Source of the DNA: Myxococcota bacterium
GTDB taxonomy: Bacteria; Myxococcota_A; UBA796; UBA9615; JAKLKC01
Length of the DNA stretch: 64,000 bases
Reading direction: 5' to 3'
Assembly: GCA_023150875.1 (NCBI GenBank)
Contig: JAKLKC010000013.1
Coordinates: forward strand, 1-64,000
This document shows positions 1,833 through 61,856 of the stretch, in pieces (within the stretch, counting starts at the first letter, position 1; every line of letters starts with the position of its first letter). Under the pieces are notes generated by a model that ran no database searches, was not told where the DNA came from, and saw only the letters and a list, made by a program, of their open reading frames with translations. A program made the translations under genes and the position numbers.

Positions 1833-4800
1833 CAGGCGGCCCTCTCGTCAGGCTTGCCGGTGCGGCGCGCGGCCGCGAGCAGGTCCCGGGGGAGCAGCCG
1901 CCCCCACCAGTACTCGCCGGCCTCGGCCAGCTCGGTGAACTTCATCCCGGTCGCGGGGGCCAGGGCCAGGAACTCCCGCCACCCGGACCGGGTCGGCGGA
2001 AGCACGGCCCCGTCGGCGAGGCCGGACCCCCGGGCGATGGTCAGCTTCCCGCCGACCACCACCGGCACCTTCTGGTCCGGGGCGTAGTAGGGGCTCGCCT
2101 CGGCCATCGAGCGCACGACCCGTCCCGCCATCCTCGGCCACCACTTCTCCACCCAGGCGTCGGATGCCAGAGTCCAGCCCAGCGTCGGCCAGTTGCCCCA
2201 GCGGCGCAGGTCCCGCTCGATGCGGGCGACGAGGGCCTGCTCGGTGTGGGCGTCGTCGTCCTCGGGCCAGGTCGGGGACAGGTGCTCGGGCTTCAGGCCC
2301 AGGGCCGCGACCTGCTCCACCTTGTGCGACGTCCAGCTCCCCGAGCCCGCCTCCCGGACGGCGATCTCGAAGCCCCTCACCTTGCCGAACTCGGCGTAGG
2401 TCACCCGGTCGGGGTTGTAGGGGGACGGCGTCCCGACCCGGAGACCCTCGTGGACGGGGGCCTCGCCGCCCTGGGGGACCAGCACCTCGGTGTCCCGCAC
2501 GGCGTACATGACGGGCGCCCACGGCCAGGCGGCGGGGTCCACCCGGGCCAGGTCCTTCAGGCGCTCCTCCCCTTCGAGCCGGAGCCGCGCGGCCTCGGTC
2601 GCGTCGTCCGCCCCTTCGGCCTTCCGGAACCGGGCGTTGGCCGACCGAAGCAGCCGGGCGGCGTCGGCGGCCACCTTCTTGCGGGCGTCGGCCTCCCGGC
2701 GGGCGCGTACCTCGGCCAGGCGCCGGGCCGTCTTCTCGGGGTCGCGGGAGATGAGGAGGAGGATCTCCTCTGGCCCCAGCTCCATCTGGGCGCCGGGGTT
2801 GTTGGTGTCCCGCGCCTGGCTCTGGAGCAGCTCCACCATCCACCCGAGCTTCCCCTGGATGAGGCTGAACCGCATCCCGTCCTGGCTCCGCCGGGCGAAG
2901 TAGTAGTTGATCGCGATGGCCTGGAGCGTGTTGCCCTGGCGCACCCCGCGCCCGTTCCGCTGCTGGAGGGTCGCCGGCTCCCAGGGCAGGTCCAGGTGGT
3001 GGATCGCGCAAGTCCGGGTCTGGAGGTCGATCCCCTCGTAGGCGATGGCGTTGGCGATCACCACGTCGTACAGCGGCGCGATCCCTTCTTCGGGGACGCC
3101 GTTGAACTCCCGGGCGATCCGCTGGCGGTCGGCGGCGGCCTTGGCGGTCAGGGCGTTGAGGATGGCGATCCGCTCCCTCGGGATCCCCGCCTCCACCAGG
3201 ACCGCCCGGACCCAGGCGTGGGCGGCGACGTTGTCCACGAAGACGATGTGGCCGCAGGTCCGGTTGGCGGTGACCCTATGGGCTAGGGCGTCGAACTTCG
3301 GGCTGTGGGGGTTCACGTCCCCCGCCTGCGCGCTCTTCCAGTCGTGGCCCTCGTCCAGGTCCGCGTGGATCGCCACCAGCGCCATCCGGGCGAGGAGGCC
3401 CAGGATCACCGACTTGTCGCCGATCTTCGTAGAGCTGAGGGCCTGCTCGATCTTCGCGACGTAGAGGTCGTACTTCCCCTCCTGGGCGGCGTCCATGTCG
3501 ACCTCGACGACCTGGACCCGGGGCTCGGGGAGCTTGAGGCCGACTTCCTCGGCGGTCTTGAACTCCCCGTAGCGGAAGATGGTCTCCCGCAGCTCGTGCA
3601 GGTTCTGGAAGCCGGTGACGGCGCTCCGCTCCTCGACCTCCATCTTCGTGTTCACCACCGGCTTCAGCTCGATGCGGAGGTACCGGTCGATGAACTGCTC
3701 GGGGTCGCGGATCCCCATGCGCGACCAGGCGTCGTGGTCCACGTACTGGATGAGGTTGTAGAACTCCAGGGGGCTGTTCTTGGCCGGCGTGGCGCTCAGG
3801 AGCACGATCCCCGCACCGCCGGTACGCCGCCGGACCGCCGCGCACCGGAAGTCGAGCTGCCAGGCGCGGTTGCTCCCCTCGCCCGCGTTCCCCATGAACC
3901 GCGGCACCCCGCCCTCCCGGGCCTCGGGCAGGTACAGGTTCTTGAAGTTCTGCGCCTCGTCCACGATGAGCAGGTCGATCCCGATGTCGTCCCACGCGAT
4001 CCCGGGGTCGTACTCCCAGCCCTCGCGGATCTCCATCGTCTCGGCGACCCACGCCGACACACCCTCCTTGAGGATGGCGCGCTGGCGCTCGGTGAGGGTC
4101 TTCATCTGCATCGCGTTGCGCTGGCGGAGCGTGACCTCCCGCTGGATCGCCTCGGTCTGCTCGGCGTAGGCGCGGACGGCGGCCTCGTTCATCCGCGTCC
4201 GCTCCAGGGCGGAGTAGGTGAGGAGCACCACGTCGAACTCCCCACCCTGGAAGCGGGTCCACTTCTCGGCCCGCTCCTGGGGGGTGTCCGTGTCCGACGT
4301 CACCTGGCCCTTGCGGTCGCCCCGGGCGATCACCTTGCGCTTCGAGCCGACGACGGCGATCCGGTAGTCGGGGAGGACGCGGCGGATGTCCGCCTCCCAC
4401 TTCCACACGATGCTGTTGGGCACCAGCACCACCGGCCGGCGGCACCAGCCCTCCTGGCGGGCCCGGGCGAGGACGCCGATCCCGGTGTAGGTCTTGCCGA
4501 CCCCCACGTCGAAGGCGACGAGGCCGCCCCGGTTGGCGAGGACCCGCCGGGCCCCGGCGACCTGGTGGGGATGCAGGCGCGGCCCGTCCTTGGCCCACCG
4601 CGCGATGTGGAGGGGCTCGGCCGCGTAGGTGGGGGCCTTGAAGCCCTGGAAGGAACGGTTGTACGCCTCCTCGATCCGTGCCCGCCGGCCCTCGTCGGCG
4701 CCGATCCACGCCCGGAAGGACTGCTCCCACTCGGCGGCCTTCTTGAGGCGCACCTCGTCGATGTTCTCGTCCTTCTTCTTCTTGGGGGAGAAGACGGTCT

Positions 4801-6910
4801 TGTCGTGGTTGATCCAGCCGATGCACCAGATCGTCTCGGCGGCGAGGTCCGCCCCGCCCTCGTCGATGTTGGCGTACTCGACGCCCTGGGGGACGACGAG
4901 GCCGTCGTCGCGGGCGAGGCGAACGGGGCCGTAGTACTCGTTGAGGGTGGCGGAGAGCCAGCCCTCGACGAGGTCCAGAGGCACCCAGCCCTGGCGGGGG
5001 GAGATCCCGGCGATGTCCTCGTAGACGGCGGGGGCGATGGCCTCCAGGAGCTTCCGCGCCTGGGCGGCGGCGACCTCGTCACCGCGATCCGCCCGGGCCT
5101 TCGCGCGGTCGTACCTCGGCCACAGGTGGCCGGTGTAGTACTGCTCCCCGGGGACGAGCTGGTCCCACCCGTCGCCGTCCCGGCACCAGCCCGAGGCGAG
5201 GAGGGCCGCCACGACGGCGTCGGGCTCCAACGTGCCCCCCGCCTTGCGATGGAAGGCGAGCAGGCGGTCGGTGCTGAGGGCGCGGGACTGGCGGTAGATG
5301 ATCTCCGCCTGGGCGGCCACGTCGTCGGGCTTGCCCCGGTAGCGGGGGCGGTAGACGGGCTTCGTCTCCAAGGAGGGGATGAGCTTCCCGGAACGCTGGA
5401 AGGCCGAGAGGAACCGCTCGGCCCCGGTGACGCCCTGCCTGGCGAGGCGCTGGAGGTCCACCTTGGCCCAGGGGTTGCCGTTCGCCCGGGACCAGGCGAG
5501 GAGGGCCTCGTGGAGCTCGGCCCAGAGGAGAGACGGCTTCTCGGAGTCCTCGGCGGCGAGGAAGGCGAGGAAGGCGTCCACCCGGAGCCCCAGGTGGACC
5601 GCCGAGGCCAGCTCTTCGGGAAGTCCCTCGGTGTCGGCCTGGACGTGGCGGGCCACTCCCACCCGGCCCCCCCGTGCCGCGCGAGGCGCCTCGACGGGGG
5701 CGAGCACGCACGAGCCGCAGTGGGGACGCTCGACGAGATCGGGCAGGCGCGTGAACTCCCCCTCGACCTGGTAGCCGAAGCGGGACTTGCGCGTCTGGTC
5801 GTCGTCACCGGCGTCCCGGCCGACCTCGCGGCCCAGGACGTGCCCCGGGTGCTCCTCGAAGTAGCGGCCCTCCAGGATGGAGCGGTCCTCGTCGGCGACC
5901 TCGGCGAGGGTGCCGCCCCGGGACCGGAAGAACAGCAGGTCCGTCACCAGCAGCGCCCCCGGGAACAGCTTGGAGGGCAGCCGGTAGGCGGCGGCGAGGT
6001 GGTGGCGGCGCAGCACCTTCTCCCGGAGCGCCAGGTTGCGCTCGGCGCGCCCCGTCATGAACCCGTAGGGGACGAGGTAGACGCCGAGCCCACCGGGGGC
6101 GAGCAGGTCCAGGCCCCGGCGCATGAAGTAGGCGTATGCCTGCTTCTCCCGGTAGGCGCGGTCCGGGTCCTCGGCGACCGACGCGCCGCGCTGGCCGTAG
6201 GGAGGGTTCGACACCACGAGCTGGACGCGCCCCTCGTACTCCGAGGCGTGCTCCCGCACCCACCGCTCGAACGGCCCCGCGTACAGGGCCAGCTCCGAGC
6301 GGATCGCCGCCAGCATCCGGGCCGACAGCCCGGAGTACTCGACGGCCAGCCACTCGACGGCACCGAAGCCCGCGCCCGAGAACGCGCGGACGAACCGCCC
6401 GATCCCCGCCGACGGTTCCAGGGCCAGGACCCGCCCCCCGGCGCCAGGCAGGGAGGCCAGCCCGGGGAGGAGAGGGCGCACCACCCGGGCCACCTCGGCG
6501 CAGACCTTGGTGGGGGTGTAGTACTCGTGGATCAGCCCCCGCTCCTCGGGGACGGGGAAGCCCGCGGGGAAGTGGCGCGAGGCCGCCTCGATGGACAGCC
6601 CGCCCCAGCCCGAGTACCCGGCGAGGACCCGCCGGTCGGCGTCGGTCATGTCGTCCGGGTGCTTGCTCGCCGCGAGGCGCATCGCCTCCAGGTTCGCCCG
6701 GGTGCGCTTCGCCGCCGTCCACTCCTCGGGGGGCAGGGCGTCGTCGTTCGCGGACGCCACCCCGCCGAGGTGCTGGTCCAGGATGGCGACCAGCGTGCGC
6801 CGGTTCCGGTACAGGAACCCGTCCAGGTAGGCCGGGGTGATCCCAGACGGGAGGCGCGTCCGTACGACCGAGGCGATCCGGTCGACGAGGGCTTCGGCCC
6901 GAGCGCTCAC
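1832..6910 (-). CDS. DarB-like fused N6-adenine methyltransferase and SF2 helicase, copy A
   Basis: A 1692-aa two-part protein. The N-terminal part has the conserved LAGYSGWGGLS segment (about residue 115), SAM-binding motif LEPSAGIGRF (about 165) and catalytic NPPYGQRG (about 235), as in amino-methyltransferases. The C-terminal part is an SF2 helicase with Walker A DVGVGKT (about 800), Walker B DEAQNFKN (about 982), motif III SATPAKNSP (about 1040) and QQRNGRGVRQGN (about 1318). This domain order matches the family of the phage P1 antirestriction protein DarB and related plasmid or phage helicase-methylases. In P1, DarB is carried in the virion and protects incoming DNA from type I restriction. 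Start is GTG at 6910, overlapping the upstream stop. A defence-evasion role is inferred from the family. Confidence 0.88.
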   Translation of the reverse strand: MSARAEALVDRIASVVRTRLPSGITPAYLDGFLYRNRRTLVAILDQHLGGVASANDDALPPEEWTAAKRTRANLEAMRLAASKHPDDMTDADRRVLAGYSGWGGLSIEAASRHFPAGFPVPEERGLIHEYYTPTKVCAEVARVVRPLLPGLASLPGAGGRVLALEPSAGIGRFVRAFSGAGFGAVEWLAVEYSGLSARMLAAIRSELALYAGPFERWVREHASEYEGRVQLVVSNPPYGQRGASVAEDPDRAYREKQAYAYFMRRGLDLLAPGGLGVYLVPYGFMTGRAERNLALREKVLRRHHLAAAYRLPSKLFPGALLVTDLLFFRSRGGTLAEVADEDRSILEGRYFEEHPGHVLGREVGRDAGDDDQTRKSRFGYQVEGEFTRLPDLVERPHCGSCVLAPVEAPRAARGGRVGVARHVQADTEGLPEELASAVHLGLRVDAFLAFLAAEDSEKPSLLWAELHEALLAWSRANGNPWAKVDLQRLARQGVTGAERFLSAFQRSGKLIPSLETKPVYRPRYRGKPDDVAAQAEIIYRQSRALSTDRLLAFHRKAGGTLEPDAVVAALLASGWCRDGDGWDQLVPGEQYYTGHLWPRYDRAKARADRGDEVAAAQARKLLEAIAPAVYEDIAGISPRQGWVPLDLVEGWLSATLNEYYGPVRLARDDGLVVPQGVEYANIDEGGADLAAETIWCIGWINHDKTVFSPKKKKDENIDEVRLKKAAEWEQSFRAWIGADEGRRARIEEAYNRSFQGFKAPTYAAEPLHIARWAKDGPRLHPHQVAGARRVLANRGGLVAFDVGVGKTYTGIGVLARARQEGWCRRPVVLVPNSIVWKWEADIRRVLPDYRIAVVGSKRKVIARGDRKGQVTSDTDTPQERAEKWTRFQGGEFDVVLLTYSALERTRMNEAAVRAYAEQTEAIQREVTLRQRNAMQMKTLTERQRAILKEGVSAWVAETMEIREGWEYDPGIAWDDIGIDLLIVDEAQNFKNLYLPEAREGGVPRFMGNAGEGSNRAWQLDFRCAAVRRRTGGAGIVLLSATPAKNSPLEFYNLIQYVDHDAWSRMGIRDPEQFIDRYLRIELKPVVNTKMEVEERSAVTGFQNLHELRETIFRYGEFKTAEEVGLKLPEPRVQVVEVDMDAAQEGKYDLYVAKIEQALSSTKIGDKSVILGLLARMALVAIHADLDEGHDWKSAQAGDVNPHSPKFDALAHRVTANRTCGHIVFVDNVAAHAWVRAVLVEAGIPRERIAILNALTAKAAADRQRIAREFNGVPEEGIAPLYDVVIANAIAYEGIDLQTRTCAIHHLDLPWEPATLQQRNGRGVRQGNTLQAIAINYYFARRSQDGMRFSLIQGKLGWMVELLQSQARDTNNPGAQMELGPEEILLLISRDPEKTARRLAEVRARREADARKKVAADAARLLRSANARFRKAEGADDATEAARLRLEGEERLKDLARVDPAAWPWAPVMYAVRDTEVLVPQGGEAPVHEGLRVGTPSPYNPDRVTYAEFGKVRGFEIAVREAGSGSWTSHKVEQVAALGLKPEHLSPTWPEDDDAHTEQALVARIERDLRRWGNWPTLGWTLASDAWVEKWWPRMAGRVVRSMAEASPYYAPDQKVPVVVGGKLTIARGSGLADGAVLPPTRSGWREFLALAPATGMKFTELAEAGEYWWGRLLPRDLLAAARRTGKPDERAA

Positions 6911-8295
6911 GCCGCGCTTCTCATCGCCGCCTGGACGGCAGCGGCGAAGGCGTCGAGGAGCACCTTGTCCTTCTCGGGATCCGCCTCCGCCGAGGCGGGA
7001 GAGGGCGACGGAACGCGCGACGGGGCCCGAGGGCGCCGCGGCAGGTCCCGGTCACGCACCTTGCCGGGCTTGCCGGCGCGGGGGGAGGACGGGACCTCGG
7101 CCCGCTGCCGGGTCAGCCCCAACGACGTCTGCCCCGCGGCGCAGGCCTTCGCCGCCCGGGCCGCCGCGAGGGCGACCTTCTCGCTGACGTAACGCACCTG
7201 CCGGGCCGCGTCCCAGGTCCGTCCCTCGGACACCGCCTTGCGGGCCGCCTCGTAGGCCGTCGTCGCACTCCGGATCGCCCTGACGGCCTCCTCCCGTTCG
7301 TCACCTCGGCACAGGGGCGAGCGCACGAGGCCCTGGGCGTGCCGCACGAGTCCCCGCGCCCGCTGGAGGTGCCCCGCCGCATCGGCGGACGTCTTCCACC
7401 CCCGCTCCCACTCCGTCAGCTCCGCCAGGGCTTGGGCGTCCTTGCGGGTGATCTCCGCGATCCGCCGCAGCTCCTTGGGGCCGTCGGGCGGCGCCGGCAC
7501 TGGCCCGGCATCGAGCGCCGGAACGACGGTCACGCCGGGGATCCCCGTCAGCCCGAAGGCCGAGGCGGTCTCGGCGTCCGCACGCACCGTCGGGGGAGAC
7601 GCGCCCTTCCCCTTCCCCTTCCCCTTCGGCTCCTTCAGCCGGTCCGTCGGGTTCTTCCGCTCCCGAGCGGGACGGGGAGGATGCGCCGCGGCGTATCCCT
7701 CGTCCATCGACGCCCGCCGGCGGGTGTCCCGGACCGAGCAGGCGTCCCCCACGACCCGCATCGCCGCGGCGATGCCCCGCGCGATGGCCTCCCCGAGGGT
7801 GGGGATCCCCTTCCCGCTCACCTCGCCGGGCTCGCTGAACCACCGCTCCGCCCTCGTCACGGTCCAGCGCCAGCCTTCCCCGGCGCGACTCTCGAGGCGC
7901 AGCGTGCCGTACGTGGCGATCCGCCGCTCCAGGAAGACGCGGGGGGTGTTCTCGTCGCAGAGCATGTGCCCGCGCCACCCTCCCCGCAGGACCGCAGGCC
8001 CCGCCTTGGGGACCGCCTTCTGCTCCGTCCGCACCATCACCACCGCGTCGGCGGGGGATACGGGGGAGATCGGGGCCTCGGGAGCGTCGGTCCCCTCACC
8101 CTGCCAGAACGTCGCGCTCGCACCCCCCTTGGGGATGTGGACGAGGACGCCCCGGGCGTTGCCGGGCCGCAGCACCAGGGCGAACTCCCCCCCGCACGCC
8201 CTTCCGTAGGCACGGATGATGCGGGGGACGTCCTCGTCGCGGCCGACGATGTCGAGGGTGAATCGCTTGTCGTTGCCGGCCTTCTCCGCCGCCAT
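6907..8295 (-). CDS. Hypothetical 462-aa operon protein with lysine-rich linker
   Basis: I do not recognise this protein. Residues about 1-170 look like a compact mixed alpha/beta domain ending near GIPTLGEAIARGIAAAMRVVG. A basic linker with GKGKGKGK follows around residue 225. The C-terminal half is helical and Ala/Arg-rich, compatible with coiled coil. It overlaps the DarB-like start by 4 bp (GTGA), so it is probably translated with it. Its place upstream of the DarB-like/lysozyme/GHKL cassette suggests a packaged or structural factor, but there is no motif to support an activity. Confidence 0.7.
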   Translation of the reverse strand: MAAEKAGNDKRFTLDIVGRDEDVPRIIRAYGRACGGEFALVLRPGNARGVLVHIPKGGASATFWQGEGTDAPEAPISPVSPADAVVMVRTEQKAVPKAGPAVLRGGWRGHMLCDENTPRVFLERRIATYGTLRLESRAGEGWRWTVTRAERWFSEPGEVSGKGIPTLGEAIARGIAAAMRVVGDACSVRDTRRRASMDEGYAAAHPPRPARERKNPTDRLKEPKGKGKGKGASPPTVRADAETASAFGLTGIPGVTVVPALDAGPVPAPPDGPKELRRIAEITRKDAQALAELTEWERGWKTSADAAGHLQRARGLVRHAQGLVRSPLCRGDEREEAVRAIRSATTAYEAARKAVSEGRTWDAARQVRYVSEKVALAAARAAKACAAGQTSLGLTRQRAEVPSSPRAGKPGKVRDRDLPRRPRAPSRVPSPSPASAEADPEKDKVLLDAFAAAVQAAMRSAA

Positions 8296-8298
8296 GTC

Positions 8299-8958
8299 TC
8301 ACCTCTTCAGCAGGGCCGGGACCACGGCCGCACCGGCGACGACCGCCAGCCCGCCCAAGACCCACGGCAGCACGCTTCCCCCGTCCGACGGATCGGCGGG
8401 GCGCTCCCGGAGCTGGCCCGGGACGACGTTCGCGCCGGGCAGGGCCCTCCCTTCCCGGCTCGCCTGGTCGTTCAGCTCCAGCGCTCGGGCCTGCACGTCC
8501 AGGGCCTTCGCCTCGTTCTCGGTCTCCCTACGAAGCTCGGCGATGTAGCCGCGCGCGACGTGGGCCCACACGAGCGCCACGACCGTCAGCCCCAGGGCGC
8601 CGACGACGAGCACCACCACGACTCCACCGAACTCCCCCCTCGCCGGCGCCGGCCTCTCCCGCTGCTCCGCGTGGGCGTAGAGCCCGACCGCCATCTCCCA
8701 CCACCGAAGGTGCAGGGCGTTGAACTGCGCGACGGCCTTCCGGTGCGCCTCGGGGTCCCGCTCCAGGCGGGCGAGGCCCATCTTCATCGCGTCGAGCTGG
8801 GCCCGGACGACGACGAGGTCCTCGACGGCACCGTTGGCGTCGGCGCGGTACGCCTCGGGGTCCCGCTCGACGGCACCCCGCAGGCGGCGGAGACCATCGG
8901 CCAGCAGCGCCTTCCAGCCCGTGCCCCAGTCTTCGAGAGAGTCCGCCCAGGTCGCCAT
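8299..8958 (-). CDS. Membrane protein with two transmembrane segments
   Basis: The 219-aa product has an N-terminal helical region (residues 1-115), a strong hydrophobic segment GGVVVVLVVGALGLTVVALVW (about 111-131), a charged helix, and a second hydrophobic segment near the C-terminus (PWVLGGLAVVAGAAVVPALL, about 197-216). No family was recognised. Three bases separate it from the downstream gene and 12 from the upstream one, so it belongs to the same operon. With the other membrane proteins of this element (11571-12194, 15430-16098, 24072-24551) it may act in a particle membrane or in host-envelope passage; this is inference. Confidence 0.72.
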   Translation of the reverse strand: MATWADSLEDWGTGWKALLADGLRRLRGAVERDPEAYRADANGAVEDLVVVRAQLDAMKMGLARLERDPEAHRKAVAQFNALHLRWWEMAVGLYAHAEQRERPAPARGEFGGVVVVLVVGALGLTVVALVWAHVARGYIAELRRETENEAKALDVQARALELNDQASREGRALPGANVVPGQLRERPADPSDGGSVLPWVLGGLAVVAGAAVVPALLKR

Positions 8959-8970
8959 CCCGTCCTCGCC

Positions 8971-9519
8971 TCACTCGTCGCGGCAGGCGTCGCGACAGGT
9001 CCAGCCGCACCCCTCGCACCCGAACCAGCCCGCGAGGTCCGTCGGCGGCTCGGCGCCCGACTCGCCGGGGGGCATGCCCCCTCGGGGGCGCATCCCGGGC
9101 CGGCCGCGACCGCCCCCCGGACCGAACCCGCCCCGGCCGCCCGGGCCTCCCCGAGACGGGAGCAGCACCCGCCCGGCGGCGGACGCCATCGCCTCGCCGA
9201 CCTTCGACAGCCGGTCCTGGGGCGTCCCCGCGGGCACCGATCCCACCAGCCACAGGTTCGGCGCGACCTCCATCACCGCGGCCCTCATGTCGGGCCGGGG
9301 CCTCACCTGGAGCACCGGGTTCCCGAGCGCGTCCTTCACGGTCACGGGACGGGCCCAGGAACGGCCGCGACCCTGGCCCCGAGCCGGGCGCGCGCCTCCC
9401 CGCCCCTCCGGACCACGATCCGGGCCTCCCCGGGAGCGGGGGGGCCTCGTGGGGCCCTCCGCCCCGAACTCGATGGGCCGCACCACGCGGCAGCGCCGCA
9501 AGAATGACCGCTTGCTCAT
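8971..9519 (-). CDS. Small Gly/Pro/Arg-rich protein with C-terminal Cys cluster
   Basis: The 182-aa product starts at ATG 9519 (MSKRSFLRR), overlapping the upstream stop by 4 bp. The middle carries an ordered-looking stretch (VTVKDALGNPVLQVRPRP, MRAAVMEVAPNLWLVGSVPAG). A long Gly/Arg/Pro low-complexity linker follows, and the protein ends with CEGCGWTCRDACRDE, four cysteines that could bind zinc. The family is not recognised. Its position among small beta-rich and membrane proteins suggests a structural or assembly accessory. Confidence 0.7.
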   Translation of the reverse strand: MSKRSFLRRCRVVRPIEFGAEGPTRPPRSRGGPDRGPEGRGGARPARGQGRGRSWARPVTVKDALGNPVLQVRPRPDMRAAVMEVAPNLWLVGSVPAGTPQDRLSKVGEAMASAAGRVLLPSRGGPGGRGGFGPGGGRGRPGMRPRGGMPPGESGAEPPTDLAGWFGCEGCGWTCRDACRDE

Positions 9520-10031
9520 CGTGCACCTCGGCCCGCCAAGCGCGCGGGCCTGCGCCGCGGCGCGCCAGCCGTCTCCGGCCTCCGGCGCCGCCGGTTCATG
9601 CCCAGCCGGGCACTCGGGTCGTCTCGATGCCATCGGCCCGCCACCTCGTACCTCACGATGCAGTGGTACAGGCCGGGTCGGTTCCTCGGGCTTCGGGTCC
9701 GCAGCATCACTTCCGCCGGGATGGACGTCAGCCTCAGCCGCTTCGCGTCGGCGTATCCCGGATCCCCCGGCGAGAGGGCCCGCCATCCCCGGGCGAGGAG
9801 CTCCCCCGCCCGGGCCGCCGAGAGACCGTCGCAGTCCTCGTGACCCTGCTGATACAGGTGGAGCACGTCGCACCAGGTCTCCACCCGCTCCCGCCGGTAC
9901 ACGACCCCCGAGGCGTACAGCCCCGGAAGGTCCTTCCGGCGCTGGTAGATCCGGGCGTTCTCCCGGGCGAGCCAGTTGAGCAGCCGCAGGGCCGCCCGCT
10001 CGTCGAAGCTGAGGAGGACGCGGATCTTCAC
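9516..10031 (-). CDS. Transglutaminase/papain-like cysteine peptidase candidate
   Basis: The 171-aa product starts at GTG 10031 (VKIRVLLSFDE), sharing GTGA with the stop of the upstream gene. Three motifs in order fit a Cys-His-Asp triad of the transglutaminase-like fold: GHEDCDGLSAARAGEL (Cys near residue 68), GLYHCIVRYEV (His near 137) and HRDDPSARLGM (Asp near 150). I recall a very similar DCEDLA...H...DPSxxLGM arrangement in many phage proteins of unknown role. Possible jobs are capsid-protein processing or peptide cross-link cleavage. The residues are visible; the activity is inferred. Confidence 0.65.
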   Translation of the reverse strand: MKIRVLLSFDERAALRLLNWLARENARIYQRRKDLPGLYASGVVYRRERVETWCDVLHLYQQGHEDCDGLSAARAGELLARGWRALSPGDPGYADAKRLRLTSIPAEVMLRTRSPRNRPGLYHCIVRYEVAGRWHRDDPSARLGMNRRRRRPETAGAPRRRPARLAGRGAR

Positions 10032-10645
10032 AGGCTCAACTCGAAGTGTAGAGAGCACAACTCTGCGGGGACGAGCCCGGTGACGGACACCTTCCGGGAC
10101 GCCCCGAGGGGTATGCCGGAGGTCCCGCCCGAGCCCATGGGATGCCGCAAGCTCACGGCGCCGCTGCCGTCCACCAGCTCCACCACCGCGGCGGTGGCCG
10201 GATCGGTGGAGTTGCCGCTGACGGCGATCGCGTAGGGTGGGACGTCGACCTCGGGTGCCGCGGAGGTCAGGAAGAAGTGGCGGACGTTCCGGGTGTACAG
10301 GACACCGTCCGCGACGGAGCAGGTGACTTCCTGGTCCTGACCGGTGATGAGACTCGCCGCAGAGATGTCGAGGGTGGTCCCGGCGACGACGCACACGCGG
10401 GTGGCGCGGGGGACGCTGATCTCGACCTCTCCGCCCTTGCCGTCGGTCCCGGTCCAGGCGAGGAACGCCTCGAAGGGCCCCTCGCCGACCAGGTCCACGA
10501 TCCGCGGCAGGGCTGGGGACGACTTGGCCCGAGCCCGCCGAAGGACCATGCGGGGACCCGGGACGAGGAGCGCCCCCGACGCGCGGGTCGCCCGGGGCAG
10601 CGTCTCGCGCCCGTAGGTGACGATGTAGTCGCAGACTTGAGCCAT
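10028..10645 (-). CDS. Beta-rich hypothetical protein, possible particle component
   Basis: The 205-aa product has no signal peptide or membrane segment. It is rich in Val/Thr/Ser and in short alternating hydrophobic runs (VEISVPRATRVCVVAGTTL, PYAIAVSGNSTDPATAAVVEL), typical of all-beta sandwiches or jelly rolls. It lies directly downstream of the acidic/basic diblock protein and 4 bp overlaps the peptidase-like gene. No family is recognised. A capsid, spike or vertex component is plausible from fold type and context only. Confidence 0.68.
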   Translation of the reverse strand: MAQVCDYIVTYGRETLPRATRASGALLVPGPRMVLRRARAKSSPALPRIVDLVGEGPFEAFLAWTGTDGKGGEVEISVPRATRVCVVAGTTLDISAASLITGQDQEVTCSVADGVLYTRNVRHFFLTSAAPEVDVPPYAIAVSGNSTDPATAAVVELVDGSGAVSLRHPMGSGGTSGIPLGASRKVSVTGLVPAELCSLHFELSL

Positions 10646-10740: not shown

Positions 10741-11499
10741 TCAGCAGAGCTGCTTGGTGCGGCCCTTGAAGGTCACCTCGAGGGACACGTCCGCGGCACC
10801 CGAGGCGGACAGGGTCCCCTTGATGACGATGTCCCGCCCGCCGCCGATGACCTGGTTCTTGAAGAACCCGCGGGCCCGGCTGCTCGCCGCGAAGTTGCTG
10901 GCCGAGGCGCCGTTGTTCGAGCTGAACACGGTCTTGCCGCCCAGCTTCACGTCGGTGATCTTCGCGAGGCCCCCCGTCACCTCGGTCAGGAAGTCCTCGA
11001 TGAAGAGGTCCTCCTGGACGCGGATGGTGATGACGAAGCTCTCCGTCCCCGCCCCAGCGAAGGTCGCGGAGGCCGATCCGGACTCCATGGTCTCGACCTT
11101 GAGGTCGGGCCGGCCCTTCTTCTTGGAGCTGCCGCGGCGCTTGCTGCTGCTCTTGCCGCTCTTGCTCCTGTTGCGCTTGTTGCGCCGCCGGCGGCGGGTG
11201 GCGCCGAACTCGTCGTCGTCCTCGCCCTCGACGGCTCCGTCGTCCTCGTCCCCGAACTCGTCGTCCTCGTCCCCGAACTCGTCGTCGTCGTCGCCCTCGA
11301 AGTCGCCGTCCTCGTCCCCGAACTCGGCGTCCTCGTCGTCCTCGTCCTCGTCGTCGTCCCAGTCCTCGTCCTCGTCCCCGAACTCGGGCTCGGGCTCGGG
11401 GCGCTGGCGGAGGCCGTCGGTGTCGACGAGCAGCTCCCGCGTCGCCGGGTCCCGGAACAGGCTGGTGTAGCCGAGGAAGATCAGGTTGTCCCTGCGCAT
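10741..11499 (-). CDS. Acidic/basic diblock protein with C-terminal beta domain
   Basis: The 252-aa product has three blocks. Residues about 1-30 are ordinary; about 31-98 are almost entirely Asp/Glu/Gly/Phe with repeats of FGDEDDE; about 99-128 are strongly basic (RRRRRNKRNRSKSGK). A C-terminal domain of about 120 residues is beta-rich (FVITIRVQEDLFIEDF, ITDVKLGGKTVFSSN, RDIVIKGTLSASG). The ITDxKxGGxxxF...F...G..I.I pattern resembles beta-sandwich structural proteins of small viruses, but I cannot name a family. A strong hairpin follows the gene. Charge blocks of this kind suit nucleic-acid neutralisation, or a scaffold that is later removed. A capsid role is inference. Confidence 0.72.
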   Translation of the reverse strand: MRRDNLIFLGYTSLFRDPATRELLVDTDGLRQRPEPEPEFGDEDEDWDDDEDEDDEDAEFGDEDGDFEGDDDDEFGDEDDEFGDEDDGAVEGEDDDEFGATRRRRRNKRNRSKSGKSSSKRRGSSKKKGRPDLKVETMESGSASATFAGAGTESFVITIRVQEDLFIEDFLTEVTGGLAKITDVKLGGKTVFSSNNGASASNFAASSRARGFFKNQVIGGGRDIVIKGTLSASGAADVSLEVTFKGRTKQLC

Positions 11500-11570: not shown

Positions 11571-12194
11571 TCAGGCGGGCTGCGCCTGGGTGCGGGCGAA
11601 CCGGCCCCGTCGCCCCATCCCCATGCGACGCCGGCGCTGGGGGCGGGTGGGCTCGGCCTCGGCCTCCTCCTCTTCCCCGCGCATCCGCGGGCGGCGCGGG
11701 GACGGCTCGGGGCTGAGCATCACCTCGCGCACCGCGCCCCCCTCGAAGATCGCGTTCCCCGACGCGTCCCGGCCCTTGAAGGTCTTGCCCTGGGGCGTCG
11801 CCAGCCGCTCCCCCGCGCGGCGCCCCAGGCTGGCCACCCACGAGGCGGTCACGCCGTTCCCGAGGGCCAGGGCGTGCTCGCCGCCGCCGCCGGTGGCCAT
11901 CTGGTAGAAGCCGAAGCCGAGGGTGAGCAGGCCGACGGGGGCCCGCAGGTCGATGCCCGCCACCTCCATCTTCGGCTGCCCGAAGTAGCCCTCCGCCACC
12001 GAGGAGAGGACGACCGCCCCCTGCATCTCGGCGGTGGCGATGGCGGCCTCTCCCGTCGCGGCGACGACCTCCTTGGCCTTCGCCGCGCGCTTGGAGAGGC
12101 TGGTGATCCGGTCGACGGCCTCGGCGAGGGCGCGGGGCGCCTGCGCCTCGCTGACCTTCTCGCCCTTGATGGCCTTCTGCAGCGCCGTGGTCAT
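11571..12194 (-). CDS. Membrane-associated protein, first gene of the leftward operon
   Basis: The 207-aa product has a helical N-terminal half (KRAAKAKEVVAATGEAAIATAEM) and a hydrophobic stretch LRAPVGLLTLGFGFYQMAT near residues 84-101. A short domain then contains GKTFKGRDASGNAIFEGG, and an acidic/Arg-rich tail ends RRRRMGMGRRGRF. It is the promoter-proximal gene, starting 56 bp downstream of the conserved leftward promoter-like block. No family was recognised. Position and composition fit an abundant membrane or structural component. Confidence 0.7.
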   Translation of the reverse strand: MTTALQKAIKGEKVSEAQAPRALAEAVDRITSLSKRAAKAKEVVAATGEAAIATAEMQGAVVLSSVAEGYFGQPKMEVAGIDLRAPVGLLTLGFGFYQMATGGGGEHALALGNGVTASWVASLGRRAGERLATPQGKTFKGRDASGNAIFEGGAVREVMLSPEPSPRRPRMRGEEEEAEAEPTRPQRRRRMGMGRRGRFARTQAQPA

Positions 12195-12249
12195 GGGTTC
12201 GCGTACCTCTTTTCGCCAGGTGTCGCCCGGCGTTGCCGTTGCTCGCCCT

Positions 12250-12297
12250 GAACGTAACGAGGGAGGCGAGGCGACCCGCCGAAATCGCTACCCCGCC
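12250..12297 (-). promoter_or_regulatory. Leftward promoter-like block (half of an inverted pair)
   Basis: Read on the minus strand it consists of GGCGGGGTAGCGATTTCGGC, a 16-bp spacer, and CTCGTTACGTTC. The block at 12591-12638 on the plus strand has the same two boxes, differing at one base (T/A), with exactly the same spacer length but an unrelated spacer sequence. Conserved boxes with a conserved gap and a free spacer, each pointing out at an operon, are what a promoter looks like. Neither box resembles a housekeeping -35/-10, so the element's own sigma factor or an activator is the likely reader. The start codon of the leftward operon lies 56 bp downstream. Confidence 0.65.
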
Positions 12298-12617
12298 GGG
12301 AGCGCCCATGGGGGGAAGTCCGCGGGGTAGCTGAGGAATTCCCGGGGTAGCGGACCCCGCCGGAGCGGGGGCGAGCCTCACGGGTGGGAGGGGCGCCGTT
12401 CCAACGCGGGGTAGTGACGCGGAGAGGCGGGGTAGCGGCGTGACCGGCGCGGGGTAGCCACGAGGGAAGGCGGGGTAGCGACGCGACCGGCGCGGGGTAG
12501 GAGGCGCTACCCCGCTCTGGACCCCGGGGTAGCGGGGCGGGATGCCCCGGGGATCGGCTCCCCCGCGGGGGAAAAAACCGCGTCCAGGACGGCGGGGTAG
12601 CGAATTCGGCTACCCGG
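12286..12617. repeat. Array of GGGGTAGC repeats (iteron-like) between divergent operons
   Basis: About twelve copies of GGGGTAGC or its complement (some with one change) lie between the two divergent operons. They begin near 12286(-), 12321, 12344, 12405, 12426, 12448, 12469, 12491, 12504(-), 12526, 12591 and 12608(-). Five consecutive direct copies from 12405 to 12491 are spaced 21-22 bp, i.e. two helical turns, so one protein would bind them on one DNA face. The region from 12195 to 12651 holds no gene. It may be an iteron-type replication origin or a multi-site operator for both operons. The outermost copies form part of the two promoter-like blocks, which favours a regulatory role. Confidence 0.75.
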
Positions 12618-12638
12618 ATGCCGCGACTCGTTACGTTC
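12591..12638 (+). promoter_or_regulatory. Rightward promoter-like block (half of an inverted pair)
   Basis: Boxes GGCGGGGTAGCGAATTCGGC and CTCGTTACGTTC are separated by 16 bp, the mirror image of the block at 12250-12297. The downstream box ends 13 bp before the GTG start of the rightward operon (12652), so the transcript would have a very short leader. The sequence just after the second box is also partly shared between the two copies (CGGACGGAGC versus AGGGCGAGC). Confidence 0.62.
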
Positions 12639-12651
12639 CGGACGGAGCGAG

Positions 12652-13680
12652 GTGAACGTGGACGAGGACCTCATCATCGAGGAGTGGCCGAAGGTCGAAG
12701 AGACGCTGAGGCGCCAGGCCCGACACACCTGCTACATCACGCTCCTCGACCGAACCCACCGGGACCGGGAGGAGCAGATCGGGCGCTTCGACTACGAGAT
12801 CGAGCACGCGCTCCCCTGGCTCGAACCGGACCGCGGCGACGACCCGGTCGCCGAAGCGCTCCACGGCGAGGACGACATCGACGAGGACCCCCTCCCCGAC
12901 ACGTTCTCGTTGGACGAGCCCCCGCGGCCGGAGCCCAGCCCCGAGCAGATCGCCGTCGCCGCGAGGCGGTGGGTGCGGGACACGGTCACCCGCAACATGG
13001 CCGGTGAGGGCTGGCGGCGCTTCCGCCTGCGTTGCTGGGCGCGCAAGGCCAGCACCCCCATCGACTCCGTCACCTTCATCGCGCGGAACACCGATCCCGC
13101 GGTGCTGGACGATCCCGATCCGCTGCCCGCGCCGCGCCTGCCCGCCAGAGCGCCGTCGATGCTGGACGAGGAGCCGCTGGCGGGCGTGTCTCGCGCCTTC
13201 GGCTCCCTCACCGTGGCCACGACGCAGGTCCTGACCCTCACGCTGGACGCCATGCGCCAGCAGCAGCTCATCGCCAACGGCACCATCGCCCGGCTCCACC
13301 AGCAGAACCAGAGCCTCCACGCAAGCACCGAGCGCCTCGCCGGCGCGGTGCTGAACGCTCGCGTCGATGCCCTGGAGGCCCGCGAGGAGGCGCTGGCCGA
13401 GAGGCCCACCGACACCCGGGCCGAGATCGCCCGGGAGGGCCTGAAGCAGCTCGGCAGCGTCGCGAACCTCCTGCTGGTCAAGCAGGGGGTGGCCTCGGAC
13501 CTGCTGCCGGTGCTCGAGGCGGCGAAGGCCTCCCCGGAGCTGGCGGCGGCCCTTCACAACCCGAAGGTGCAGGCCCTGATGCGCGACCCGCAGACCTTGC
13601 GGGAGCTGGCCCAGATCATCACCGCGGCGGCGGAGGAGACGGCTGAGAGCGGCGCTGCTGCCGCGTCGGACGCCGCCTGA
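12652..13680 (+). CDS. Hypothetical 342-aa coiled-coil protein, first gene of rightward operon
   Basis: GTG start with a GGAG-type ribosome site just upstream (about 12644-12647). The first 110 residues are acidic (DEDLIIEEWPKVEET, GEDDIDEDPLPDTF). A central region (105-150) has tryptophans and basic residues (GEGWRRFRLRCWARK). The C-terminal half is helical and Ala/Leu-rich (QQQLIANGTIARLHQQNQSL; NARVDALEAREEALAER), compatible with a coiled coil. I recognise no family. It opens an operon that goes on to an amidase and a membrane protein, so a structural or scaffold role is possible. Confidence 0.72.
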   Translation: MNVDEDLIIEEWPKVEETLRRQARHTCYITLLDRTHRDREEQIGRFDYEIEHALPWLEPDRGDDPVAEALHGEDDIDEDPLPDTFSLDEPPRPEPSPEQIAVAARRWVRDTVTRNMAGEGWRRFRLRCWARKASTPIDSVTFIARNTDPAVLDDPDPLPAPRLPARAPSMLDEEPLAGVSRAFGSLTVATTQVLTLTLDAMRQQQLIANGTIARLHQQNQSLHASTERLAGAVLNARVDALEAREEALAERPTDTRAEIAREGLKQLGSVANLLLVKQGVASDLLPVLEAAKASPELAAALHNPKVQALMRDPQTLRELAQIITAAAEETAESGAAAASDAA

Positions 13681-13712: not shown

Positions 13713-14258
13713 ATGCCCTCGCCCTCCGCAAGGCGCCGCCCTCCCTCCTGGCTCGCAAAGGCCCGGGCCCTCTGGCCCGGCTTCGCCGCCCACGACGAGC
13801 CCAGCCTCACCGAGGGCCTCGACGAGTTCCACGACGACATGGAGCCCTCCGACCAGCGGTTCGCCGTGGGACACCTCGTCTACCTGGGCCTGGAGGGGCT
13901 TCACACGGTCGTTCGGGAGCTGCGCGCCCTGCGCGAGGCCATCGAGGACCTCGCGTCGAGCCTGGAACCCGAGGACGAGGACCCGGACGCCGAGCAGGAG
14001 GACGGCGGGGAGGAAGACGGCGGGGAAGAAGACGACGCCGAGGAGCCCGAGGCCGACGACCGGGAAGGCTCCGTGGAGGTCGAAGAGGCCGTGACCGACA
14101 CCCCGGCCGCGCCCCCCGAGCCCGCCGGGACCGCGGCGAGGGTCACCACCCGGCGCGCCTCCACCCGCCGCGCTGCGCCGCCGCCCACCGGACCTGTGGA
14201 GGTCCTGGACTCCGACGGGCAGGTCCTCGCCCGGGCCGAGGGTGAGGCCGTTCCGTGA
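13713..14258 (+). CDS. Small acidic-linker protein
   Basis: The 181-aa product begins 33 bp after the previous gene with an AAGGAG ribosome site at 13700-13705. A helical N-terminal part (GLDEFHDDMEPSDQRFAVGH, LREAIEDLASSLE) is followed by about 35 residues of Asp/Glu/Gly (residues 88-125). A Pro/Ala/Thr linker leads to a short C-terminal stretch PVEVLDSDGQVLARAEG. The family is not recognised. It is translationally coupled to the next gene by GTGA. Confidence 0.68.
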   Translation: MPSPSARRRPPSWLAKARALWPGFAAHDEPSLTEGLDEFHDDMEPSDQRFAVGHLVYLGLEGLHTVVRELRALREAIEDLASSLEPEDEDPDAEQEDGGEEDGGEEDDAEEPEADDREGSVEVEEAVTDTPAAPPEPAGTAARVTTRRASTRRAAPPPTGPVEVLDSDGQVLARAEGEAVP

Positions 14259-14701
14259 AGGCCCCGGGCGTCGACATCGACCTGGTCGTCCCCAGGCTGA
14301 GCGCGCTGCACGCCGTCGCCGTCCGCCGGATGCTCGGCCGGACGGTCCTCGACCTGGTGCGTCCCGCGCTCCGGGAGGAGCCGACGACGCGGGAAGGGGG
14401 CGCCAGGCAGGTGTTCCCCCTCCGCGTGCCCGACGGGATGGGGTTCGCCATCCCCCTCGGCGTCTTCGGCGAGATCGGCCTGCGCGCCGACGGTGACCGC
14501 CTGGTGCTCGCGGTCCCACGGATGCTGTACGAGCGGGTGGTGGGACGGGTCCGGCACCTGGTGGTGGCCGGTCCCCTCTCCCCGCCCGGACGTGGCGACG
14601 TCTCCGAGGCATGGCTCCAGCTCCGGCCGGGCGACCGGGTGACCGCGCCCCTCTTGCCCGGCGTGGAGGTCGTCCTCGAAGTGCCAGCCGGGGCCCCATG
14701 A
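14255..14701 (+). CDS. Hypothetical 148-aa protein
   Basis: Starts at GTG 14255 overlapping the previous stop, and ends overlapping the amidase start by ATGA. It has a mixed composition with beta-like strands (GMGFAIPLGVFGEIGLRADGD, RLVLAVPRMLYERVVGRVRH) and a final segment VTAPLLPGVEVVLEVPAGAP. No membrane segment or known motif is visible. Tight coupling to the amidase suggests a partner or structural neighbour of it. Confidence 0.68.
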   Translation: MKAPGVDIDLVVPRLSALHAVAVRRMLGRTVLDLVRPALREEPTTREGGARQVFPLRVPDGMGFAIPLGVFGEIGLRADGDRLVLAVPRMLYERVVGRVRHLVVAGPLSPPGRGDVSEAWLQLRPGDRVTAPLLPGVEVVLEVPAGAP

Positions 14702-15366
14702 GCGCCCCCCATGTCGTCAACGGCGCCGGGATCCAGGTGGGCGCCCCCCGCCCCCTCGCCGTCCTGGACATCCAGCACCGGGGCAAGCCCGGGAAGTGGG
14801 CCGACCGCGGCGCCACCTACCCACCCGGGGCCCGACTCCAGGACCCCCACATCGAGGAGGTGGACCTCACCCACCGGTACGTGCTGGCCGCGGACCGCAC
14901 CTTGCGGCTCGCGGGCTTCAACGTGGCCGTGATCGCCGACGGCGCCTACCGGGACCGCTGGCAGCGGTCCCACGACTACGGGGCGGCGGTTCATGTGGCC
15001 TGCCACGTCGACTCCGGTGGCGCCAACCGCGGATCGGTCCTCTACGACCGGCGCTCCCCGAACGGTCGCGTGCTCGCGGACGCCGTCGCCGATGCCCTGG
15101 GACGGGCGGTGCCCTGGCCCGTCGCCGCCGCCTCGTGCGGCCCCGACACCAACGGCGTACCCGGGGACGAGGGGGAGCGGGGCTTCTCCGTGATCGCCGG
15201 CCTCTACCCGCTGCGGCCGACGGGCCTGGTCTACGAGCCCGGCTTCATCGACTCCCGAAACGACCAGCACCGCGCGCTCCTGGCCGAGCGCCCCGAGTTG
15301 CTGGGGGTGGCCCTCGCCCGGGGCATCGCCGCCGGCTGGGCGCGCCTGGTGGCGAACGCCTCCTGA
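14698..15366 (+). CDS. N-acetylmuramoyl-L-alanine amidase-like (Amidase_3 fold)
   Basis: The 222-aa product fits zinc-dependent amidases that cut the bond between MurNAc and the peptide stem. Visible zinc ligands and context are LDIQHRGKPGKWADRGA (His near 26), HIEEVDLTHRYVLAA (Glu near 54) and HVACHVDSGGANRG (His near 101); a late catalytic-type segment is VYEPGFIDSRNDQHRALL. Family members have HxG...E...H in the same order. There is no signal peptide, so it would act from inside with a holin-like protein or as part of a particle. The downstream membrane protein at 15430 is a candidate partner. Confidence 0.8.
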   Translation: MSAPHVVNGAGIQVGAPRPLAVLDIQHRGKPGKWADRGATYPPGARLQDPHIEEVDLTHRYVLAADRTLRLAGFNVAVIADGAYRDRWQRSHDYGAAVHVACHVDSGGANRGSVLYDRRSPNGRVLADAVADALGRAVPWPVAAASCGPDTNGVPGDEGERGFSVIAGLYPLRPTGLVYEPGFIDSRNDQHRALLAERPELLGVALARGIAAGWARLVANAS

Positions 15367-15429
15367 AGAACCCCGGGGCCGCGGACCGCGCCCCTCACCG
15401 CTCCCTTCGTGGAGCAGGAGATCCCTTCG

Positions 15430-16098
15430 ATGCACACCGTCTCGAACGCCGTGCCCCTCCCCTCCCCGGCCTCCGGGCCCCCGCCGTGGCTCGTCACGCT
15501 CGCCTACATGGCCGCGGGCATCACCCTCGGGATGCTGCTCGTGCACCTCGCCACCGGGTGCGCCAGCTCGACCCCGGCGCCCGCTCCCTCCGTCGGGTCC
15601 CCCGACTCCGGCGAGGTGGAGGGCGCCTTCAACATCGCGGCCCTCGCCGCGACCGTGGCCCAGACCGCCGCCCTGGCCGATGCCTCCGCCGAGGGCTGCC
15701 TGGCCGCGTCCATCGCCTACGGCGGGATCCAGCTCGCCCACACGGTCTACCACGGGGTCGCGAGCGGCGGCGGTGCGCTCGTGCTCGCCGTCGACGCCTC
15801 GGCCTGCCTCCCCCTCGGCCTCCCAGCCGTCTCCGCCCCCCCGCCCGAGGTCGATTCCGGGATCCGCCTGGTGCTCCAGATCGTGGGAGACGCCGTGGGG
15901 CTGCTGGGCACGGTGGTGACGGACGACGACGCGAAGGCCGTCCTCGCCCGGGTGGGCGAGGTCCTGGCCCTGGTGCCGGATGCGTACTCGGCGACGGTGG
16001 AGGCCCTCAGGGACGAGGCGAGCCAGCCCGACGGGAAGGTGACGATCATCCTCGCCGAGGAGGTGCCCATCGCCGCCTCGGGCGCCGGCGCTCCCTGA
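15430..16098 (+). CDS. Membrane protein downstream of the amidase
   Basis: The 222-aa product begins at ATG 15430, chosen over GTG 15409 because AGGAGA lies 8 bp before it. A transmembrane segment WLVTLAYMAAGITLGMLLVHL (about 20-40) is followed by ATGCASSTPAP, which could be read as a lipobox although the hydrophobic segment is long. Further moderately hydrophobic helices follow (AALAATVAQTAALADAS, SGIRLVLQIVGDAVGLLGTVV). A holin- or spanin-like role next to the amidase is possible, but there is no diagnostic motif. Confidence 0.66.
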   Translation: MHTVSNAVPLPSPASGPPPWLVTLAYMAAGITLGMLLVHLATGCASSTPAPAPSVGSPDSGEVEGAFNIAALAATVAQTAALADASAEGCLAASIAYGGIQLAHTVYHGVASGGGALVLAVDASACLPLGLPAVSAPPPEVDSGIRLVLQIVGDAVGLLGTVVTDDDAKAVLARVGEVLALVPDAYSATVEALRDEASQPDGKVTIILAEEVPIAASGAGAP

Positions 16099-20529: not shown

Positions 20530-21297
20530 TCAGCCGAGCCGAGCGGCGGGGCGGCCGTCGGCGACGGCGGCCCCCTGCGCATCGTTGGCCGCCAACGGCC
20601 GCTCCAGGCCCTTCCGCAGCTTGCGGAGGGCCCGGGCCTCGATCTGCCGTACCCTCTCGGGGGTGCATCCCAGCTCACCCGCGAGTTCCCTCAGGGTGCG
20701 TTTCTCGTCGTCCAGGTGGCGGCGGGTGACGACGTGACGCTCCCTCGGGGTCAGGGACGCGATCTCGCACCCGAGCACCTGTCCGAGCACGTCCCGCTCC
20801 TGGCCCGCGGCGACCTCGGCTTCGGGTCCGGCGGACCCGTCGGAGAGGACCTCGGCGAGCACCTCCCCGTCGGGATCCATGGCGTCCAGGGAGGCGTCCG
20901 CCGAGCGTCGGCCGGGCGGCCGTCGCACGGCGCCCCGCGACCGGTCGATGGCGCGGTCCACGTAGACGCGGATCCAGTGCCGGGCGTAGGTCGCCAGGGT
21001 CCCGGCGGCGGGGTCCCAGGTGTCGAGCGCCCGGAGCAGGCCGAGGTTGCCCTCCTGGACGAGGTCGTCGTGGGCGAGACCGCACGGGCGGGCCCTGTCG
21101 CGGGCGATGGCCAGCACCCACCGAAGCTGCCCGCCGACCAGCCGCGCGTGCGCGTCGCGGTCCCGGTGATCCCTCCACCGCCGCCCCAGCTCCCGCTCCT
21201 CCTCGGGGGAGAGGAGTGGGCAGCGCGCTACGGCCACCACGTAGGGGTGTGCGGGGACGCCGGGCGAGCTCCCCCGGGCTGGGCTCGACGAGTTCAT
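20530..21297 (-). CDS. Element-encoded sigma-70 family sigma factor
   Basis: The 255-aa product has region 2 (LVQEGNLGLLRALDTWDPAAG, TYARHWIRVYVDRAIDRSR, about residues 77-125) and region 4 (LTPRERHVVTRRHLDD, LAGELGCTPERVRQIEARALRKLRK, about 180-232). It is short for a housekeeping factor and lacks region 1.1, like RpoH/RpoS-size or phage-borne alternative factors. Start ATG 21297 overlaps the previous stop (ATGA). It probably redirects RNA polymerase to element promoters. The paired promoter-like blocks at 12250 and 12591 are the obvious candidate targets. Confidence 0.88.
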   Translation of the reverse strand: MNSSSPARGSSPGVPAHPYVVAVARCPLLSPEEERELGRRWRDHRDRDAHARLVGGQLRWVLAIARDRARPCGLAHDDLVQEGNLGLLRALDTWDPAAGTLATYARHWIRVYVDRAIDRSRGAVRRPPGRRSADASLDAMDPDGEVLAEVLSDGSAGPEAEVAAGQERDVLGQVLGCEIASLTPRERHVVTRRHLDDEKRTLRELAGELGCTPERVRQIEARALRKLRKGLERPLAANDAQGAAVADGRPAARLG

Positions 21298-32811: not shown

Positions 32812-33381
32812 GGGGGGATCCTCAGGGATGGGGTAGATGGGGACGGGCCGGATCCGCGTGGCCCCGAACGAGGGCGGCATCGGGGAGCGCCCGCACCGCG
32901 GGCACGAGGGTCCCGAAACACCTTGGGCCCCAAGAGCCGCCCCCCTCCTCCAAGACAACGGACGGGCCTGTCGGACAGCGGATGCCGCCCTTCGGGGGCG
33001 TCGGGGCGGCGTTCGGGGGGTCGCGCGGTTCCGTCATCGTCGGGGCGGGGGTCCGGGAGGCCGGGGGTCCGGCCATCGCCCGGGGCCGGGGTAAGCTGTT
33101 GACATAACTCGGATTCCTTGTCCACGCCCGGCGAACTGCGGCCCGCGCGGTACCTGCTCGGAGCCCGTCCGACACCCGGCCCGGGGGCTGCCCGGTCTCT
33201 GTCCTGGACCGTCCCCCGCTGTCCTGGAAGCGGCCCGGGCCGGCTGCCAGAGTCCTGCCCGTCCACGACGCGCACCGCCTCGGCGGACCGGGTCCACCTC
33301 CCCGCCGCGGCGTCCCCTCACCTCCGCTGGCTCCGGCCAGGGTGGCACACGTCTGCCCACGGCAGACCGGAGACTCCTTCT
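32812..33381. other. Intergenic region, 570 bp, no supported gene
   Basis: Frames here are low-complexity Arg/Gly/Pro and unconvincing. A less GC-rich patch at 33090-33118 contains TTGACATAACTC, which could be a -35 element, but I see no good -10 after it. The region separates the leftward recombinase from the rightward 33.4-37.8 kb genes and may hold the promoters of both. Confidence 0.45.
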
Positions 33382-38155: not shown

Positions 38156-38227
38156 CCTTGCAGGACAAGGACTTACAGCAGGCAGACCTCGCCGAACCCG
38201 AGGTCTGCGGAGGTCTGCGAGGTCTGC
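37919..38227. repeat. 9-bp repeat array GCAGACCTC / GAGGTCTGC in both orientations
   Basis: Twelve units: three at 37919-37946, three at 37994-38020 (the first as GAAGACCTC), then inverted units at 38123-38140 (two), one direct at 38182, and inverted units at 38200-38227 (three). Direct and inverted groups could pair into long stems. Units are spaced by exactly 9 bp within groups, so reading frames pass through as EVCEVC or LADLADL. The array lies directly after a primase-helicase gene. Confidence 0.75.
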
Positions 38228-48163: not shown

Positions 48164-48175
48164 GGGCCGGCCCTC

Positions 48176-60054: not shown

Positions 60055-60083
60055 AAGATGAGCCCTCGTCCGGCCCGGCCGCA

Positions 60084-60284: not shown

Positions 60285-60317
60285 GGCGTCCTCGACGTTC
60301 GCCTGGGCAGACGGGGT

Positions 60318-61838: not shown

Positions 61839-61856
61839 GGCGGTCTCCGCGCCCGG

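Follow-up and report, generated by a model that had tools for sequence, protein, structure and literature searches.

Helically phased repeats of an element-specific word in a probable control region between two divergent operons of a Myxococcota genome

The intergenic region at positions 12195 to 12651 of the DNA analysed here is crowded with copies of one short word and opens onto an operon on either side. What does this region control, and which protein reads its repeats? The DNA (the window, 64,000 nucleotides) is the first part of a 122-kb contig from a 6.9-Mb metagenome-assembled genome (MAG), and its genes were called heuristically with a simple caller based on GC content by codon position. 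The leftward operon comprises, in order, g207, g252, g205, g171, g124, g219, g462 and a DarB-like methyltransferase/helicase gene; the rightward operon comprises g342, g181, g148, Amidase_3 and a lipoprotein-like gene.

1832 to 6910, minus strand: DarB-like fused N6-methyltransferase/SNF2 helicase
6907 to 9345, minus strand: g124, g219 (membrane segments) and g462
9516 to 10031, minus strand: g171, the best conserved among the smaller proteins
10028 to 10645, minus strand: g205, all-beta; its fold weakly resembles that of double jelly-roll capsid proteins
10741 to 11499, minus strand: g252, acidic repeats and a C-terminal domain
11571 to 12194, minus strand: g207, first gene of the left operon, with a glycine-rich hydrophobic segment
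12195 to 12651, no strand: bidirectional control region between the divergent operons, judged from the sequence and from homologous g207/g342 intergenic regions
12652 to 13680, plus strand: g342, first gene of the right operon, 342 aa; the start is possibly the GTG at 12658
13713 to 14258, plus strand: g181, helical protein with an acidic tail
14255 to 14701, plus strand: g148, conserved, without assigned function
14698 to 15366, plus strand: Amidase_3 (endolysin-like)
15409 to 16098, plus strand: lipoprotein-like, last gene of the right operon

The initial annotation had described two mirror-image 48-bp blocks, at 12250-12297 (minus) and 12591-12638 (plus). Both are present, and 35 of their 48 positions are identical. 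After each of 60 dinucleotide shuffles, the closest inverted 48-mer was identical at 27.1 positions on average and at 31 at most. As reported, each block contains a 20-bp box, which differs between the two at one position, and past the same 16-bp gap a 12-bp box that does not differ; both blocks read GGCGGGGTAGCGA[T/A]TTCGGC-N16-CTCGTTACGTTC. Their outward orientation, each into an operon, is borne out by the gene calls. The array of about twelve GGGGTAGC copies is real, but the count was slightly high: the 457-bp region holds nine exact 8-mers (seven on the plus strand, two on the minus strand) and 11 copies of GGGGTAG. In 300 shuffles the latter occurred 0.28 times on average and at most twice, and the remaining 63.5 kb of the window holds 8. 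The sole other close GGGGTAG pair in the 6.9-Mb genome sits in low-complexity coding sequence. Five copies do follow one another at steps of 21, 22, 21 and 22 bp (12408, 12429, 12451, 12472 and 12494).

12251 to 12256, minus strand: candidate -10 element (TACGTT) for leftward transcription, within the 12-bp box and starting 30 bp past the outermost repeat
12278 to 12297, minus strand: leftward 20-bp box with an outward-facing repeat (12287-12294)
12324 to 12351, plus strand: two repeats (12324, 12344)
12408 to 12501, plus strand: core array, five repeats at 21-22 bp steps
12506 to 12513, minus strand: inverted repeat within a plus/minus/plus triad (12494+, 12506-, 12526+)
12526 to 12533, plus strand: repeat closing the triad
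12591 to 12610, plus strand: rightward 20-bp box with an outward-facing repeat (12594-12601)
12632 to 12637, plus strand: candidate -10 element (TACGTT) for rightward transcription, likewise starting 30 bp past the outermost repeat

The divergent two-operon cluster recurs with conserved gene order at no fewer than 39 distinct loci of Myxococcota-type MAGs, among them three others in this genome; the loci compared are related to each other and the counts are thus not independent. The relatives, found by alignment, are labelled Sandaracinus sp., 'Deltaproteobacteria' or Myxococcota (a few records are evidently misnamed), and the DNA fetched around many of them consists of short flanks on MAG contigs. 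An alignment search of genome contigs with g171 gave 51 loci, and the same kind of contig search with VapE gave no matches. g342 has three more copies in its own genome and homologues in 25 of the 58 genomes searched, its own included.

Most of the 39 g207/g342 intergenic regions carry an array of a single 8-bp word, and the word varies by element. It is GGGGTAGC in the window and GTGGTCAG in the three other clusters of the genome; elsewhere GCGGTCAG, GCGGTAAG, GCGGTTGG, GCGGCAAG, GCAGCAAG, GCTGTAGG, GCGGGAGA, CTGGTCAA and others are used, and the loose pattern G-N-G-G-[T/C/G]-N-R-G fits many of them. The best 8-mer score was reached by at most 5 of 100 Markov shuffles in 32 of the 39 regions and by at most 1 of 100 in 23. 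Twelve of 60 control intergenic regions passed at 5 of 100, several of them being real arrays of another kind. A clear array is absent from L025, L068, L114 and the viral contig locus L119. Where genes have been inserted between the operons (L049, L050, L045), repeats are kept at both ends, as they should be if every promoter depends on sites of its own. A second, paralogous cluster begins at the right edge of the window, where it occupies 57478-63994, and runs on into L024. It has genes for an HSP90-like ATPase, an unassigned protein, a phrog_30036-type protein and a DarB-like protein, and the word of its control array is GTGGTCAG. The presence of two words within one genome (the window versus L022-L024) points to element-specific binders, and each element probably has its own matching control protein.

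The spacing of the repeats follows the DNA helix. A common period of 10.7 bp fits the 25 loci analysed best, with a summed Rayleigh statistic of 147.6, against a mean of 41.5 and a maximum of 56.2 when spacings were redistributed. Steps of 21-22 bp dominate (78 neighbouring plus-strand copies); next come 9 and 13 bp, together again 22 bp, and 32-33 bp. Triads like 12494+/12506-/12526+ also occur in L022-L024, L027, L064 and L074.

The core of the 12-bp box is best read, from its sequence and position, as a -10 element, TACGTT, starting 30 bp past the outermost repeat on both sides. In relatives a TAnnnT motif lies 29-33 bp past the last repeat, or at 42-44 bp where the scan missed a degenerate last copy. 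The left sides of L046 and L055 read repeat-N10-TTCCAA-N17-TAGTGG. Some relatives have better -35 elements than the window, as on the right sides of L022-L024, which read TTGCyC-N17-CATnnT. A scan for consensus sigma-70 promoters (TTGACA-N16-18-TATAAT-like) found no match in the window, TACGTT being -10-like only. Conservation of the boxes and their spacing had been proposed as a check on the locus: the layout and the distance to the -10 element are kept in relatives, but the array sequence is not. The description of a divergent control region is well supported by this recurrence of boxes, outward direction and repeat-to-(-10) distance. If these promoters are correctly placed, the outermost copies would occupy about -50 to -43 and immediately precede a poor -35. 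A last repeat at this position, next to a weak -35, suits an activator, and activation appears to fit the repeat position better than repression does.

Several known systems share parts of this arrangement. LytTR operators consist of 9-bp repeats with 12-13 bp gaps about 10 bp upstream of the -35 (PMC6193735). The array resembles those of LytTR-type systems (LytTR Regulatory Systems; AgrA family) in that its short direct repeats are not palindromic, follow one another at about 21 bp and lie shortly before the -35. LytTR-type operators are often autoregulatory and vary in sequence by system (PMC6193735), as the word does here. Unlike LytTR operators, which hold a pair of repeats, the arrays have about 10-15 copies and two outward promoters, and no LytTR-domain regulator is encoded in the cluster. 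SARP/OmpR-type boxes are direct repeats 11 or 22 bp apart on one helix face (PMC10936776), and the helix-turn spacing on one face is similar here. However, SARP repeats end 8 bp from the -10, compared to 30-33 bp here, and no SARP, BTAD or Trans_reg_C genes were found in the cluster. Precedents for cooperative head-to-tail binding on direct repeats come from phage 186 Apl, whose direct repeats lie at helix-turn spacing between divergent phage promoters (PMC7498355), and from BldC, which forms a cooperative filament on repeats of varying number (PMC5859096). Unlike the binder expected here, Apl and BldC are small wHTH proteins with fewer sites, and BldC prefers AT-rich repeats. No Apl- or BldC-like gene was found at the locus. 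Stoperators of Cluster A mycobacteriophages are dispersed genome-wide, whereas the words described here are confined to a single intergenic region. The operator sequences of these phages are element-specific and diverge between related prophages (PMC6550527). The region is not a recognisable LytTR, SARP or sigma-factor system.

We favour g342 as the candidate array-binding protein. Word distance was compared pairwise with protein distance for six genes at 21 loci (partial Mantel). g342 divergence correlates with that of the word (rho 0.636), also given the other genes (partial 0.325, permutation p=0.002), and given g342 the partial correlation is at most 0.09 for every other gene tested. Distance alone does not explain this covariation, since g207 is about as close to the array as g342; linkage could account for it in part, and the seed words of the individual loci were in part hand-picked. 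Ladders of repeats are also found upstream of some g342 genes that have no left operon (L051, L052/L061, L042, L060, L062), and 5 of 12 such solo upstream regions stay within the limit of 5 of 100 shuffles. For g342, AlphaFold gave a model of only moderate quality (pLDDT 80, pTM 0.47), which comprises an N-terminal alpha/beta domain, a 76-residue helix (a long coiled coil) and C-terminal helices with weak STI1/DP-like similarity. Comparison of g342 with PDB folds and DNA-binding families gave no match, and a sliding-window correlation for a specificity segment within the protein gave no clear peak. In L042, L052, L053, L054 and L061, g342 is followed by a shorter relative of some 211-260 aa, whose similarity is mainly to the N-terminal domain. 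g181 was rejected as binder: L022 and L023 have the same word, yet 55% of g181 positions differ. No homologue of the sigma factor at 20530-21297, suggested as a binder in the initial annotation, was found in the DNA retrieved around other array clusters, where many contigs are short. This factor is RpoH-like and lies within a block of replication genes (VapE, primase-like, DnaQ-like).

Taken together, we think it probable that the region acts as a promoter in both directions and that its helically phased repeats are an operator array. The element to which it would belong is mobile and probably derived from a virus; it would itself encode the protein that binds the array, with g342 the favoured one. 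This protein would bind many 8-bp words in direct repeat, and because the words are mostly two helix turns apart, it would do so on one face of the DNA. It would likely assemble head to tail and cooperatively on the array, whose occupancy would switch both operons together. With g342 as the binder, g342 would regulate itself.

The binder might instead be encoded outside the cluster, for example by the host (a LytTR or OmpR-type protein) or by another gene of the element. The repeat spacing fits LytTR operators, TTCCAA-N17-TAGTGG in L046 and L055 starts 10 bp past the repeat, and XRE-like genes follow g148 in some loci. However, the one LytTR gene of the window's own genome is on another contig, genome G023 (87% complete) has several arrays and no LytTR match, and g342 has no profile similarity to LytTR. 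Moreover, two words in one genome would call for several host regulators, and XRE-like genes are missing from most loci. We regard an outside binder as unlikely. Another reading with g342 as the binder would be a centromere-like partition site, on which g342 would segregate the excised element and repress its own operon, like parC/ParR. There, too, an autoregulated direct-repeat array flanks the promoter of the binder, and its replicon-specific sequence sets plasmid incompatibility (PMC9426499). The 76-residue helix of g342, its tracking of the word and its occurrence without virion genes, on contigs with serine recombinases, would suit such a role. But no ParM, ParA or TubZ was seen adjoining the array, and scanning the conserved operons gave no ParM/ParR homologue and no actin- or tubulin-like NTPase with an RHH adaptor. 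Unlike in ParR/parC, the outward copies are aligned with the promoters, at a fixed distance from the -10-like elements on both sides, and the array can be split by inserted genes. Partition is in our judgement quite improbable.

Inserted genes also bear on a replication origin, in which the repeats would serve as iterons and the element would encode their initiator. Being short, directional and spaced at 21-22 bp, the repeats do resemble iterons, and VapE and primase-like genes are present in the window. Nevertheless, the GC content of the region is 73% and it lacks an AT-rich stretch for unwinding, so that the set of features typical of an iteron origin (iterons, an AT-rich unwinding element and an adjacent initiator gene) was not found. 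The earlier suggestion of a replication region fared poorly: the array is split by inserted genes that leave repeats at both ends, and separate iteron-like arrays exist elsewhere in the window (37919-38227) and in relatives (L087, L041, L055, L058). An origin here is very unlikely. Least probable of all is a recognition site for DNA packaging or transfer, comparable to terminase boxes or TraB/FtsK words. Short directional words do adjoin probable particle genes, but the cluster contains no packaging ATPase, terminase, TraB or FtsK, the copies occur in both orientations and are aligned with -10-like elements, and the array is missing from a viral contig with the same gene module. A riboswitch or other RNA element was discarded, with no Rfam match at E<=1.

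In the array at 37919-38227, 11 AGGTCTGC copies follow one another every 9-10 bp, grouped in clusters that face either way, and AGGTCTGC recurs in nearly the same layout in another genome (L087, 3173-3485). This array is likely an iteron origin or a control site of a replication module. Dense iteron-like arrays (GGTGTGGCC, GGTGTGTCC, GTGGGGA) in L041 (9300-9640), L055 (6120-6520) and L058 (6380-6800) adjoin SSB-like genes, and VapE is also beside those of L041 and L055.

What the favoured promoter-operator array would control is suggested by the flanking operons. With the DarB-like protein, the amidase, the small membrane proteins and g205, these operons look like a module for a virion or particle. 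The DarB-like gene encodes a fused N6-methyltransferase and SNF2-type helicase, as in phage P1 DarB and its phage homologues; PADLOC gave only generic helicase/methyltransferase matches, and a known defence system was set aside. g205 and its homologues are two-domain, all-beta proteins. The g205 model (pLDDT 90.5) best matches PBSX XepA, which is not a capsid, and more weakly the double jelly-roll proteins STIV MCP (E=8e-5, TM 0.43) and phiCjT23 capsid (E=1e-3). No packaging ATPase, as in the Varidnaviria morphogenesis module, terminase or portal was recognised in the conserved operons, so that these are only putatively viral. The same module is found on a 105-kb IMG/VR contig, IMGVR_UViG_3300025141_000040 (L119, L121-L126), together with a ribonucleotide reductase, a UDG-DNA polymerase A fusion and a 3569-aa DarB-like protein. 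Its 703-bp intergenic region carries no array, and no tailed-phage structural genes were found among the proteins scanned.

If the favoured reading is right, the clusters constitute dozens of cognate protein-operator pairs, several of them in one genome, in which geometry is fixed and specificity drifts, and it becomes possible to test directly how a regulator and its DNA word coevolve. The array would also point to a DNA-binding protein without a recognised fold and mark a particle or virus-like gene module that is widespread in Myxococcota and apparently undescribed. More tentatively, it is possible, though we would not count on it, that g342 founds a new DNA-binding control family without a recognisable DNA-binding fold, which assembles on phased arrays and coevolves with private 8-bp words. 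It would thereby provide heteroimmune-like switches for an undescribed, multi-copy, virus-derived family of Myxococcota elements.

Some further features of the window were noted. The Cys, His and Asp motifs of g171 (EDCD, YHC, DDPS) are invariant and reminiscent of a transglutaminase-type cysteine protease; comparison with PDB sequences gave no match. A tandem repeat at 11209-11386 encodes the acidic D/E/G repeats of g252, and an acidic tract is present in most homologues. Two large serine recombinase genes (29475-31178 and 30787-32880) lie on opposite strands and overlap as called, and related recombinases are present on several other g342 contigs. Between the two clusters, an RND-type efflux operon (45005-50664) encodes an AcrB-like pump, an HlyD-type adaptor and an outer-membrane channel.
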